From NCBI GenBank assembly GCA_947375135.1, contig CANCER010000001.1:124001-188000 (forward strand): 64,000 bases of DNA. The letters are read 5' to 3'. Each line of letters starts with the position of its first letter. The first letter of the stretch is position 1. The position numbers and the translations under genes were made by a program. The notes beneath the pieces are model-generated. The model ran no database searches. It saw nothing but the letters and a program-made list of their open reading frames with translations, and was not told the origin of the DNA. Positions 6,360 through 16,764 of this stretch are shown here, in pieces. Origin of the DNA: Comamonadaceae bacterium (GTDB lineage Bacteria; Pseudomonadota; Gammaproteobacteria; Burkholderiales; Burkholderiaceae_C).

Positions 6360-6575
6360 CTACTTTTTCACCGGGGCTTCTACCGCAGGGGGAGCTGCGG
6401 TAGCCATGGCGACCACGGCAGGCTTGCCTGCACCGCCATTCAGAAAGCCTTTGACCCAGGTGGTGTTGCTCACGATAGCGAGGTGAACACTGAATGAGGC
6501 AACGGCGACTGCGCCCAGAAACACCGGGATGCCCACGGCCGGATTGACCACCGTCCAAATTTTTCCGTAAATCAT
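6360..6575 (-). CDS. pucA: LH2 alpha polypeptide
   Basis: MIYGKIWTVVNPAVGIPVFLG...VHLAIVSNTTW with His31; 71 aa. Confidence 0.95.
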   Translation of the reverse strand: MIYGKIWTVVNPAVGIPVFLGAVAVASFSVHLAIVSNTTWVKGFLNGGAGKPAVVAMATAAPPAVEAPVKK

Positions 6576-6585
6576 GTGCAGTCTC

Positions 6586-6735
6586 CTATTTCAGCCAGGG
6601 TGAATAGATATAGGCCAGCAGATGGGCGAACGCGGCAATCATGCCGAATATCTGCGTACCCTGGATGAGATGCCGATGGATCTCCTCCGACTCAGCCACG
6701 GTAAGACCCGTTGGCCCCACTTTTTCGTCAGCCAT
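6586..6735 (-). CDS. pucB: LH2 beta polypeptide
   Basis: MADEKVGPTGLTVAESEEIHRHLIQGTQIFGMIAAFAHLLAYIYSPWLK, typical LH beta. Confidence 0.95.
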   Translation of the reverse strand: MADEKVGPTGLTVAESEEIHRHLIQGTQIFGMIAAFAHLLAYIYSPWLK

Positions 6736-10013: not shown

Positions 10014-11054
10014 CTATTTGGAGGCCAGGCTCTGCGTCACCGGGCCCGCCAACTCGGGGTAGTCGGCCACCATGGGCGTGCCATTGAGGGGCTTGTAGGC
10101 GCCCTGGTGGCAGGTCGCGCAGTTGGCCTTGGCCACATCGCCCAGCTCGCCCTTGCGGTGTGCGGGGAAGGTATCGGCCAGCGGCTCCAGAAAGTCGTTG
10201 TTCAGCGAGCGGGCCATGCGGATGCCGTACCAGGCCACCGCCCGTTGCGGCGGGTTGCCCTGCCAGGACTGGAAGGACCGCGTGTTGTGGCAATAGGTGC
10301 AGTTCACACCCAGCGATTGCGACAGGTGCGTCATCAGCCCATAGGTCCATTCCGCCTGCTTGATGGAGTGGCGGTTACCCGAGGGCAAGGCCGTGGGGCC
10401 GTTGACGCGGATGTCCTCCTGGCCCAGCAGAAAGGGGGTGAACGGATCGTTGGGCAGGGACGACAGATTGACCGCCGGGTCGGGGCTGTTCTGGCCGGCC
10501 TTGTCGCCGATGAAGTTGGAGCCATAGGGCTGGGGGTTGGAACGGAACCAGACCTGCTGCGGAATGGCGTTGCCACGGTGGCAGGTGTAGCAGGTCACGC
10601 CGGTTCCGGCCACGTGGGTCTTCCACTCGCTGTTGACGGTGCGTGTCATCTCCAGCATGCGCCGCGCCACGACCTTGGTGTACTTGCTGTCTTCGGCAAA
10701 GTTGGCCGGGTTGTGGCAATAGATGCAGCCTTCGTTGGGAGCCACCCAAGTCGTCATGGAGGCCATCAGGCGGGTGAACTGGGCGACACTAAGGTCACCC
10801 ACCACCTTGACGTTTTTGAATACGACCGACGCCCTGGGGCCATCCACCGCTGCGGGTGGCAGTGGCACCGGTGCGGTGTGGTTGTCCAGATTGGCTTCGA
10901 CGATGCGCGGGTTGTAAACCTGCAGCATGCCGGTGCCACGGTAGCCACGTTGCACCGAGTCCATGCTGGGGCGCTCGCAGCCCACGAGCAAAAAGGCCAA
11001 TGCCATCAGCGCCAGGCGCAGCCTGTTGCCGGAGGTGAAGAGAAACGGTGTCAT
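10014..11054 (-). CDS. pufC: Photosynthetic reaction centre tetraheme cytochrome c subunit (lipoprotein)
   Basis: Four CXXCH motifs (CIYCH, CYTCH, CTYCH, CATCH); lipobox LVGC; downstream of pufM. Confidence 0.96.
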
Positions 11055-12028
11055 GGCTTCACTCCTTGCAGCAGGGTGGGATCAATCACTTGGGGGAACA
11101 CGGCCGGGTATGGCGGCACTACGCCGTGCTTCATGGACCAGAGGTACCAGTTATCCACCACCGTGCCGGTGAGCAGAATGCCGATGCCACCGACCAGCGG
11201 GCACAACACTGCAAACCACCAGGCCCAGCGGTGAATCGATTCCATGGTGGCGTTGAAGCCCATGGTCCAGCGCCAGAACAGGGCAGCACGCTCAGACGCC
11301 GTACCTCGGTCCACGATCTGCTCCACCTCGCGCTCGCCGCCGAAGCGGGTCACCGCCAGGATGGTGGCGCCGTGCATGGCAAACAGCAGCGTAGAGCCAT
11401 ACAGGAACACGATGGAGAGCGCATGGAAGGGGTTGTAAAACAGGTTGCCATAGCGCAAGGAGAAGGCCGCCGTCCAGTCCAGGTGCGGGAAGATGCCGAA
11501 GGGCACTGCCTCACCCCAGGAGCCCATCAGGACGGGGCGGAAAAAGCCCAGCACCAGAAAAAGCCAGATAGCCGCCAGGAAGGCCCAAGGCACATGGGTG
11601 CCCAGCCCCAATTCGCGGGAGCGCCGGTAGGTGCGCAACCACCACAGAAACAGCGAGGCTGTCAGGAAGCCACCGGCCATCAGCCACCAGCCACCCTGGT
11701 TGAGTGGCGGCAGATGCAGCCCGTAACTCGGCGGCGGCGGCTCCAGCGCCAGCCAGAACAGCTGGCGCACAAACTGCACCGGGTTCCAGTGCACCGATGC
11801 CAGCATGTTCAGGCCGATGATGTTGAAAGCGATCATGCCGCACACCAGCGAGGCCAGTCCCAGGGCACCGAGGTAGATCGGGCCGATCTGCGCGTTGCCC
11901 AGCTTGCCCGCCCAGTACGAGGCAAAGGGCTGGCCCAGGCGCGGGCTGTTGCCCCGGCCCAGTTCAACGCCGTGGTGCAGCGGTCCCGTGGCTTGCACGG
12001 TCGTGAAAAGATTTTGGTATTCAGCCAT
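11051..12028 (-). CDS. pufM: Photosynthetic reaction centre M subunit
   Basis: [13 protein letters not shown]...[23 protein letters not shown]...[17 protein letters not shown]...[18 protein letters not shown]. Confidence 0.97.
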
Positions 12029-12907: not shown

Positions 12908-12962
12908 AGAAAAAAAGAGGGAAGCAGACACCGGGCTGAAGGGACTTCGGTTCAGTGTCTGC
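12908..12962 (-). promoter_or_regulatory. pufA-pufL intercistronic hairpin with downstream T tract
   Basis: On minus strand GCAGACAC...GTGTCTGC stem followed by CTTCCCTCTTTTTTTC; located in the pufA-pufL gap. Confidence 0.7.
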
Positions 12963-12971
12963 CAGGTGCAG

Positions 12972-13175
12972 TTACGACTTGATCGCAGGCACTGCGGGCG
13001 GCAACGGTGCGTTTTGCGCTGTTGCTGATGCCACGGGTTTCTTTGCGCCGTCGAGCCAGTTGAACTTGTTGGTGCTCAGCAGGATGAGGTGAATCATCGC
13101 GGCCAAAGCAAAGAGGAAAATTCCCTGAACCACCATGGCCCGAAGGGGATCGAAAAGTCGCCAAATACGCCACAT
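12972..13175 (-). CDS. pufA: LH1 alpha polypeptide
   Basis: [41 protein letters not shown]. Confidence 0.96.
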
Positions 13176-13185
13176 AAAAGTACTC

Positions 13186-13413
13186 CTAAAAAATGTGGGA
13201 CAAGAAGGTGTAGATACCAGCGTTCACCCCGGAGAAGATGTTTGTCATGTTCTCGGCACCAGGCAGCCAGTTCTTCCATGACATGCCAAGCACCTGGCCA
13301 ACGGCAGCAACGAACAAAAGCAGGACAAAACACGGTACAAAGACCAGGGCAAACGTCAGCTTGTCACCCTTGGCAGGGTGGTGGGCTTCCGATAAATGCG
13401 GGTTTACGAACAT
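13186..13413 (-). CDS. 75-aa membrane protein encoded between pufB and pufA
   Basis: [81 protein letters not shown]; its stop codon overlaps the pufA SD (TAGGAGT). Confidence 0.85.
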
Positions 13414-13445: not shown

Positions 13446-13589
13446 TCAGAACCAGGGTCGCCATGCCCAGACCAGGATGTGGGCGACCACGGCAACCGCC
13501 GTGAAACCCACCATTCCCTGCATCCAGTAATGGTGAAACTCCTGAGCTTCCTCGTCAGTCAGTCCGGATATGGAATTCGGATTCGACAT
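13446..13589 (-). CDS. pufB: LH1 beta polypeptide
   Basis: Hand translation: [47 protein letters not shown] (absent from the ORF track because it is short). Confidence 0.96.
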
Positions 13590-13723: not shown

Positions 13724-15202
13724 TCATGCAGGCACCCCCATTCCCAGCGCACGGCTGGCCTGGTCGACATGGGCATCGCCCACGCTGGCTGCGGCGGCTT
13801 CGCGGGCATGGCGCTCGGCCAGGTCGCGCAACTGTTTGGCCGCAGAAATCTGGATCAGCACCGGCTGGCTCTGCACGATGTCGCGCAGCCGCGCCTGTGC
13901 CGACTCTTCCCAGATGGCGTTGGGCACCACCACGCCGCGTGCGTGCGTGGGGTCGACCCGGTCCATCTCGGTGCCCAGGGGCAGGATGTGGAACAGCGCA
14001 TCAAAGAGCGCGTTGCAAACTTCCTGAATCAGGTAGGTGGCGCCGCTGTAGCCCATGAAGGGCGTGCCGGTGTGGCGGCGGATGATGGCACCCGGAAACG
14101 AGGCTGGGATAAAGGCCGCACGCATGGGGCCTGCGCCACCGGCTTCGGCCAGGTACATACGCTCGTTGTAGCTGCCAAACATGATGAGCGGCGTCTGCGT
14201 TTTGCACATCTGGCGGATGGCCTGGTTGTCGGTCTTGGTACCTGCGGTGCGCGACACCGCAAACTTGCAGGGCAGGCCCATCTCCACTTCCAGAAAATGG
14301 CGGATGCCCCGCGTGTAGGTTTCGGTGGCGACGATGGCAAAGCTGGCGGTGGAGAAAAAGTCCTGCGTCACCGAGCGCCACAGGTCCCACAGCGGTTTGA
14401 GCGTGGTGTGGCGTTCGCGCTCGATAAAGGGCTCGGGGTCCAGGCCCAGCAGTTCGCCGAGCTTGCGCAAGAACTGGGTCGTGCTGTGCAGTCCGATGGG
14501 GGCTTGCAGATAAGGGCGCTCCAGCGCCTCGCACAGCATGCGGCCGAACTCACGGTACATGCAGATGTTGACATCGGCCTCCACCAGGCGCGACACATCG
14601 GCCACGTGGCTGGTCAGCGGGAACACCATGTTGATGTCCGCACCCATGCCCTGCACCAGGCGGCGGATTTCGGCCAGGTCGCTGGGGGAATTGAAGGTGC
14701 CATAGGCCGGGCCGATGATGTTGACCCGCGGCTTCTCGCCGGCCGGGCGTTCGGCAAAGGGCTTGCGGGCAGGCACCTGGCGCAGGCCGTATTCGGTCCA
14801 CAGCCAGTACATGGCGCGGTTGGCGCACTGCCACTGGTCTTCGTCAATCGTGCGCGGCAAAAAGCGCAGGATGTTGGTGCCTTCGGGCGTGACGCCGCCA
14901 CCAATCATTTCGGCAATCGAGCCGGTCACCACCACGGCGGGCAGATCGGGGTCCAGCGTGGCGTGGGCACGCTTCATGGCGCCTTCGGTGCCTTCGCGTC
15001 CCAGTTGCTCTTCACCCAGGCCGGTCACCACAATGGGCAACTCGTGCGGGGGCAAGGCATCGGTGTAATGCAGCACGGAGGTCACCGGCAGGTTCTCGCA
15101 GCCCACCGGGCCGTCAATGACGACCTGCAAGCCCTTGATGGCGGTGAACACATACACCGCCCCCCAGTAGCCGCCGGCCCGGTCGTGGTCTATGACAAAC
15201 AT
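13724..15202 (-). CDS. bchZ: Chlorophyllide a reductase subunit Z
   Basis: [72 protein letters not shown] overlap with bchY. Confidence 0.96.
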
Positions 15203-16764
15203 CAGCCCATCTCCTCGGCTTTGCGCTTTTTGAGCAAACGCGCCAACTGGCGTTTGGTCTCGGCGCGGAACTCGGGGCGGTCTTGCGGCACGTCTTCCCA
15301 CACGCCGGAAGCGTGGCCGGCGCCCACCTGACCAAAAAAGCCGGACATGGCATCAAAGCGGGCCTGGTTGCCTATGGCGGCCTGCACCACCTGCACCAGC
15401 GACCCGGCTCCAGCTACGCCCATCAGGGGCCGGGCGGAAATCAGGTTGGTGAAGTACAGCGAGGGGATGGACAGCTGTTTGGCCTTTTGCACCACCGGGG
15501 TGGTGCCCACGGCGAGTTGCGGCCTATATTCATGGACGGCAGCCAGGTCCTGCTCCAGCGAGGCACGGAATTGCACTTGCACACCGTGCGCCTGCAGCCA
15601 GTCGGCGTCCGCCGCATTCCAGGGCGTGGCCGGACAGGCCGAACCGACATAGCGCAAATCGGCACCGCACTCCACCAGCAGGCGGCCTACCAGCAGCTCG
15701 GAGCCCTCATAGCCGCTGAGCGTGATGCGCCCTGTAATGGGTTTGGCAGCCAGTAGCGGGCGCATGGCAGCCAGGGCCTGGTTGCGGGCCAGATCGATCT
15801 TTTCCTGGCCCACACCACAGGCGTGGCCAATGGCCTGCAGCCAAGCCTGCGTGCCCTCCAGCCCCACCGGAGCCGAGCCGATGACGGGGCGGCCCGCCGC
15901 CTGAAACTCGCGCACGCTGGCGGTGTAAAAGGGATGGATGGCGGCCACGGCGGCGCAGTCCAGCGCGGCGTAGAGCTCGCGCCATTCGCGTGTGGGCACC
16001 ACCGGCCCGGCCGCCAGACCCATGGGGGCCAGCAGATGCGCAATGCCCACCGGGTCGGCGGGGAACATTTCGCCCAGGAGCGTGACCGTGGGCTTGTCGT
16101 TGATGCCGGCACGCGGAGCCTGCACCGGGCCGTTCAGAATCTCCTGGCGGGCGTAGCGCAGCATGGCGCCAGCCAGCACGTCCTTGGCCTCTGCGTGGGT
16201 GGGCACGCCAAAGCCGGGCACGTCGATGCCGATGACGCGCACGCCGTTGATCTCCTTGGGCAGCAGCTGCAGCGGCACACCGCTGGCGCTGGGCACGCAC
16301 AGGTTGATGATGACGATGGCGTCGTATTGCGCCGGGTCGGCCTGGGCATGCACGGCTTCGCGGATGTCTTCAAACAGCTTGCCGGTGACCAGGGTCTCGG
16401 AGTTGAACGGCACATAGCCGACGCTGCGGCGCGCACCGTAGAAGTGCGAGGTAAAGGTCAGTCCATACACGCAGCAGGCCGAGCCCGACAGGATGGTGGC
16501 AGTGCGGCGCATGCGCAGCCCCACACGCAGCGAACCAAAGGCCGGGCACATGCTTTGGGGCTGGTCGTGCGGGCCGGCCTGCTCCTTGCGCGGATAGTCC
16601 TTCGCGTACTGCGCCAGGATCTCGGATTTGCCGGCGGCCTTGGCCGCCGAGAGCAGTTGCTCGCCACCCGCGTGACAGCCCATGCCGTCGCCTTCGAGTG
16701 CGGTGGTTTGCGCAGTGCGGGGAGTCAGCGACTCCACCGGAACAATGGGTATGGTGGTGGACAT
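15202..16764 (-). CDS. bchY: Chlorophyllide a reductase subunit Y
   Basis: [22 protein letters not shown]...[52 protein letters not shown]. Confidence 0.96.

Follow-up and report, generated by a model that had tools for sequence, protein, structure and literature searches.

The window analysed here, a 64,000-nucleotide stretch of DNA from a Comamonadaceae bacterium, carries a puf operon on its minus strand in which a small gene, designated orfX, lies between the genes for the two LH1 polypeptides. The genes and features of the locus, in the order of transcription, are:

13724..15211, minus strand: bchZ, at the operon's upstream end
13446..13589, minus strand: pufB, LH1-beta (NF040862); short form with a WRPWF end, no C-terminal tail, His ligand kept
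13186..13413, minus strand: orfX (ORF74 family), His-less LH1-beta paralogue of 75 aa with a predicted TM helix at about 15-42
13186..13188, minus strand: TAG stop codon of orfX, overlapping the pufA Shine-Dalgarno sequence (TAGGAG) and forming its first part
12972..13175, minus strand: pufA, LH1-alpha (NF040861)
12910..12963, minus strand: stem-loop followed by a U-tract just past pufA, terminator- or attenuator-like, closing the pufB-orfX-pufA segment
12041..12868, minus strand: pufL, RC-L subunit
11051..12028, minus strand: pufM, RC-M subunit
10014..11054, minus strand: pufC, RC cytochrome subunit

The orfX frame begins with ATG, comprises 75 codons and is preceded by a GGAG Shine-Dalgarno sequence 7 nt ahead of the start; its product has a single hydrophobic span, with Gln40 at the position of the bacteriochlorophyll (BChl)-ligating His of LH1-beta. 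These observations bear out the first-pass annotation, which had placed between pufB and pufA an open reading frame with its own Shine-Dalgarno sequence, a stop overlapping that of pufA, and a product described as an accessory single-TM puf protein lacking the BChl His. The reaction-center genes pufL, pufM, and pufC lie downstream of orfX and bchZ upstream; the interval between bchZ and pufB in the window contains no Q-like gene (defined below). A hairpin after pufA is present in 60/60 related operons (median −28.5 kcal/mol, vs. −14.6 for a control stretch), and the stem-loop and U-tract place orfX inside the LH1 segment of the operon, which is usually the most abundant puf message. The Shine-Dalgarno sequences of pufB, orfX, and pufA are of similar strength. 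A second pair of LH alpha/beta-type genes is found on the minus strand at 6453-6693, about 6.3 kb downstream of pufA in the same cluster (LHC matches of 35.6 and 34.4 bits); this pair is probably LH2 pucBA.

Single-sequence scans of Pfam and NCBIfam returned nothing useful for the window OrfX, which has no match above the cut-off to the Pfam LHC family (PF00556); the same family matches 8 of 45 OrfX homologues at E ≤ 1 (best 4.4e-6). When the window protein was compared with the PDB by phmmer, LH1-beta chains were recovered (E = 1e-5), and a profile built from the 45 homologues and searched against 177,635 PDB sequences gave 40 matches at E ≤ 1, the best at 1.1e-15 and every one an LH beta chain. 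Profile–profile alignment of OrfX with beta by HHalign gave E = 1e-16 and a score of 83, with reversed controls at 11 or less. In the column of the beta ligand, His is present in 124/124 beta sequences and is replaced in 74 of 75 OrfX homologues, where the residue is Gln in 60, Thr in 5, Ala, Lys, and Leu in 2 each, and Cys, Gly, Ser, and His in 1 each. From the PDB profile matches, the HHalign score and the His-column counts taken together, OrfX is a divergent LH1-beta paralogue whose pigment ligand has been lost. The earlier statement that it is not a third LH polypeptide thus holds for its chemistry and fails for its ancestry; with the ligand gone, OrfX is not classed as an LH1-beta subunit. 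The single homologue with His at the ligand position (L088:1387-1608, genome G093) could have either retained or regained it.

OrfX is without the N-terminal SGLT..EFH motif of beta. Conserved positions are W46, W49, P51, G52, A53, E54, V63, Y68, T69, and S72, most readily seen as a C-terminal tail of the form W(R/K)xWLPGAE...SL..GVKAAVYTFMSHL, in which GVKAAVYTFMSHL makes up the C-terminal helix. An AF2 monomer model of modest confidence (pLDDT 67) places the TM helix at residues 15-42, followed by another helix at 59-74; a Foldseek search with this model gave no meaningful match, as expected for a protein consisting of one TM helix and a short helix. Charge-based prediction of topology is uninformative for OrfX, since beta itself breaks the charge rule.

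A search for homologues in relatives, as the first-pass annotation had suggested, was carried out in 300 genomes sampled from the same GTDB family as the window, with E ≤ 3e-8 taken as a strong match: orfX was found in 39 of the 48 genomes that bear pufL and in none of those that lack it. No match was found in a plasmid collection. In every operon that has orfX (about 70), the gene is located between pufB and pufA, the few odd gene orders in the operon survey being an artefact of sorting stop-to-stop frames. The view that pufB and pufA are adjacent in known puf operons therefore applies to the alphaproteobacterial models; in Burkholderiales a gene between them is the rule (70 of 83 operons). 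Values of dN/dS for orfX against its relatives are mostly 0.15-0.28, with 0.59 for one very close pair that has few changes, and those for pufA and pufL are mostly 0.04-0.12; orfX is under purifying selection, weaker than that on pufA and pufL. Protein-level conservation with low dN/dS, fixed position and co-occurrence with pufL together mark orfX as a real gene.

The C-terminal tail of OrfX is also found on some LH1-beta proteins, and its distribution follows a pattern. The 83 Burkholderiales operons show three arrangements and no other combination of beta tail, OrfX, and Q-like protein: a short beta (one that ends at WRPW) with OrfX in 70, a short beta with a Q-like protein encoded ahead of pufB in 4 (G116 and three genomes of family f23, all without OrfX), and a tailed beta alone in 9. 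The tail is thus present once per Burkholderiales operon, either on beta or on a ligand-less paralogue. In three of the nine operons with a tailed beta (G328, G475, and G462), beta ends in an OrfX/Q-type tail, GVKAAVNSFMPYVFMA, and keeps both the His and the N-terminal motif; one tailed beta, WRPWLPGSGGYTSMIDGVKAAVNSFMPYVFMA, scores 90.8 bits as beta, 81.7 as OrfX, and 54.1 as Q-like. The LH1-beta proteins of L248, L250, and L261 bear an OrfX/Q-type tail some 28 residues long at the C-terminus and look like one-gene counterparts of the divided pufB + orfX pair. In the best pufL tree, six changes of tail coincide with changes of OrfX/Q, of which one independent pair falls on well-supported branches; as the phylogenetic test is underpowered on supported branches, the statistics of this complementarity are suggestive only. 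OrfX and a tailed beta are not straightforward alternatives in all groups: that idea was rejected on account of the many alphaproteobacteria that have a tailed beta together with a Q-like protein. Outside Burkholderiales this combination is common and a few operons have neither, in a sample that was partly picked by a PufQ search and whose proportions mean little. The non-Burkholderiales loci L138, L139, and L235 encode a short LH1-beta with no OrfX and no detectable Q-like protein.

Q-like proteins, as the term is used here, are small proteins whose genes occupy the pufQ position between bchZ and pufB; all but one lack the His. They were found in two gammaproteobacteria (G1226 and G1136), a few Burkholderiales and a range of alphaproteobacteria, namely an order around G605 and several further groups. 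The Pfam PufQ family misses those at L210-L219, L125-L137, L231, L232, L078, and L251, so that organisms carrying such genes may be scored as lacking PufQ; the unannotated genes are flagged here. Three sets of comparisons connect these proteins with their neighbors: OrfX and Q-like align by HHalign at 8.6e-13 (score 61-68, controls 15 or less); the Q-like profile, independently of OrfX, has LH1-beta as its top nine PDB matches (2.5e-8); and Q-like aligns with Rhodobacterales PufQ at 1e-6 to 1e-5 (score 31-37, controls 15 or less). Direct comparison of OrfX with PufQ is marginal (E = 5e-4, score 23 vs. 12 for the control) and that of PufQ with beta shows no similarity by HHalign; the link from PufQ to beta therefore depends on the Q-like intermediates. 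One of these, L232 from a gammaproteobacterium, keeps the His and scores equally with both group profiles (42.0/40.8 bits). By HHalign, OrfX is somewhat nearer to beta than it is to Q-like. In a tree of 112 sequences beta (80/95), OrfX (96/97), and Q-like + PufQ (98/87) are separated, and the OrfX clade has, by this tree, a single origin; since the tree is unrooted and the sequences are short, it fits OrfX nearer beta and OrfX nearer Q-like, and a shared ligand-less OrfX/Q ancestor as well as independent losses of His. The first-pass proposal of a PufQ-like factor survives in part, through the profile link by way of intermediates: there is no match to PF05398 (Pfam PufQ) at orfX, and orfX lies between pufB and pufA where pufQ lies between bchZ and pufB, and on these two grounds OrfX is not filed as PufQ.

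The role of PufQ has been disputed since 1988, and its mode of action is unsettled. In Rba. sphaeroides PufQ is needed for normal BChl levels, which are lowered by its deletion; the protein also associates with carotenoid and with ferrochelatase, and pigment binding and a role in LH assembly were proposed for it in earlier work (PMC5725709). Its pattern of conservation (TM helix and C-terminus) is that seen in OrfX and the Q-like proteins, and it is from the known role of PufQ and this shared pattern that a PufQ-like mode of working may be proposed for OrfX. We suggest, with about even confidence, that OrfX arose from LH1-beta and serves, like PufQ, in LH1/pigment biogenesis. LH1-beta would have been duplicated and one copy, OrfX, would have lost the BChl ligand; the C-terminal tail would have stayed with OrfX, or passed to it, and disappeared from the operon's pigment-binding PufB. 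OrfX would then be the Burkholderiales member of a wider ligand-less, beta-derived puf family that includes the Q-like proteins and, most distantly, PufQ; translated, together with LH1 alpha and beta, from the abundant pufB-orfX-pufA message, it would serve as a beta-mimicking membrane factor in pigment delivery and LH1 assembly, as PufQ may, and not as an antenna subunit. Its place in the PufQ functional group and its part in assembly or pigment supply are both inferred. Counted against this role are the missing PF05398 match, the marginal OrfX-PufQ score and the position unlike that of pufQ; a complementarity that is strict in Burkholderiales only, with one supported independent pair; and expression within the LH1 segment with pufA-like Shine-Dalgarno strength, which suits a structural subunit too.

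The broader evolutionary proposition seems to us somewhat more probable than its opposite: PufQ and OrfX/ORF74 would both be ligand-less descendants of LH1-beta, and the tail would be a module of beta origin that the puf operons of proteobacteria have in cis, as part of LH1-beta itself, or in trans, as part of a paralogue without the His. An antenna subunit would thus have been divided in two, one part binding pigment and the other dedicated to biogenesis (or ring architecture), and the gene would have shifted between the two sides of pufB. Most of the sampled phototrophic Burkholderiales operons contain orfX, and this reading would assign the gene to a family and account for its origin; for PufQ it would supply an origin open to testing. 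If it is true, removing the tail from a tailed LH1-beta, deleting orfX and deleting pufQ should each impair one and the same step, and the three should partially complement one another.

The alternative that OrfX is a structural subunit of RC-LH1, sitting as a pigment-less beta in a beta position, capping an LH1 arc with a quinone gap, or lying outside beta like the gamma polypeptide, is a possibility that we hold as the less favored of two serious ones. Homology to beta would provide a fold that fits the ring, and the WRxW interface motif is kept; the gene belongs to the most abundant puf message, with Shine-Dalgarno strength like that of pufA (PMC10037100), and PufX and protein W are precedents for TM proteins without pigment that open the LH1 ring (PMC7806223). 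Against it, orfX evolves about 2-5 times faster than pufA and pufL, which is unusual for a tightly packed ring subunit; the sequence of OrfX shows no relationship to those of PufX, protein W, or protein-U; and its studied distant relative, PufQ, is a biogenesis factor rather than a ring subunit.

Glutamine is able to ligate Mg in other chlorophyll proteins. The prevalence of Gln in OrfX (60 of 75 homologues) and the retained WRxW motif would accordingly suit a spectrally shifted third antenna polypeptide that binds BChl through Gln or another residue, but in 14 of 75 the ligand position is occupied by Ala, Gly, Leu, Thr, Lys, Cys, or Ser while the rest of the protein is conserved, and the N-terminal EFH motif of beta is lost as well, which makes this reading improbable. 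Still less probable is that orfX acts mainly by setting the spacing or ratio of beta and alpha translation, with a peptide that matters little. The overlap of its stop with the pufA Shine-Dalgarno sequence and the median gap of 12 nt from orfX stop to pufA start are compatible with such an effect, yet the protein is conserved and under purifying selection, its C-terminal peptide is conserved across families, and Q-like genes at another position replace it; the translational offset of beta and alpha put forward in the first-pass annotation found no specific support, the three Shine-Dalgarno sequences being alike. That OrfX is a decaying, functionless duplicate of pufB, as ligand loss and faster evolution might suggest, is hardly credible, being contradicted by an intact frame, by purifying selection and by its retention in every short-beta Burkholderiales operon that has no Q-like gene (70 of 74, the other 4 having Q-like).

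Several known systems can be set beside the proposed biogenesis factor. With LH1-beta (PufB; PF00556/NF040862) OrfX shares a homologous TM helix, WRxW motif and C-terminal tail, the last where beta itself is tailed; it differs in being encoded by a separate gene beside a true pufB, in the loss of His in all homologues but one, and in the loss of SGLT..EFH. PufX, protein W, protein-U/PufY, and LH1 gamma are small pigment-less membrane proteins of RC-LH1 and possible functional analogues of OrfX. The likeness to PufX, PufY, or protein W drawn in the first-pass annotation has no counterpart in sequence: although the PDB set includes RC-LH1 entries containing PufX, protein W, and protein-U (PufY), the OrfX profile retrieved none of these chains, nor LH1 gamma, at E ≤ 1. 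Protein W has three TM helices (PMC7806223) vs. one span in OrfX, and the gamma-like peptide is of 22 aa and inverted (PMC9640540). Among PDB entries no RC-LH1 from Burkholderiales was recognised; the beta chain that best matches the window pufB is one with a tail (60 bits, vs. 106 for the self-match).

The closest non-beta relatives of OrfX are the Q-like proteins (e.g., L210, L231, L232, L078, and L251), which have the same architecture and a common tail (S-V/L-F/I-G-x-A/V-K/R-A-A ... FM); they differ in being encoded before pufB, in an eroded WRPW motif and in a tail that ends in PFAFM rather than the YTFMSHL of OrfX. Rhodobacterales PufQ (PF05398) likewise has a single TM helix, a conserved C-terminal segment, a puf operon location and no BChl His, but its gene precedes pufB where orfX follows it, and the Pfam profile does not match OrfX.

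The search brought up no homologue annotated as a characterised puf protein; the sole annotation found is ORF74 of Roseateles depolymerans (RD2015_RS05155), left uncharacterised in PMC10037100, which cites Suyama et al. (2002). By locus tag ORF74 falls between pufB (RS05150) and pufA (RS05160), and its length is nearly that of OrfX; judged by position and length, it is likely the OrfX orthologue. It shares the major 1-kb puf transcript with pufB and pufA, and induction upon carbon starvation is greatest for these three genes (PMC10037100). That study assigns ORF74 no family, homology, or function. Searches of open-licence literature found no description of a pufB-orf-pufA family or of a Burkholderiales RC-LH1 structure beyond ORF74, and no statement of LH1-beta paralogy, of generality in Burkholderiales, or of a shared origin with PufQ, an earlier description being possible. 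The gene itself had thus been noticed before, as ORF74; what the comparison with LH1-beta, Q-like proteins, and PufQ adds is a family and an origin for it.
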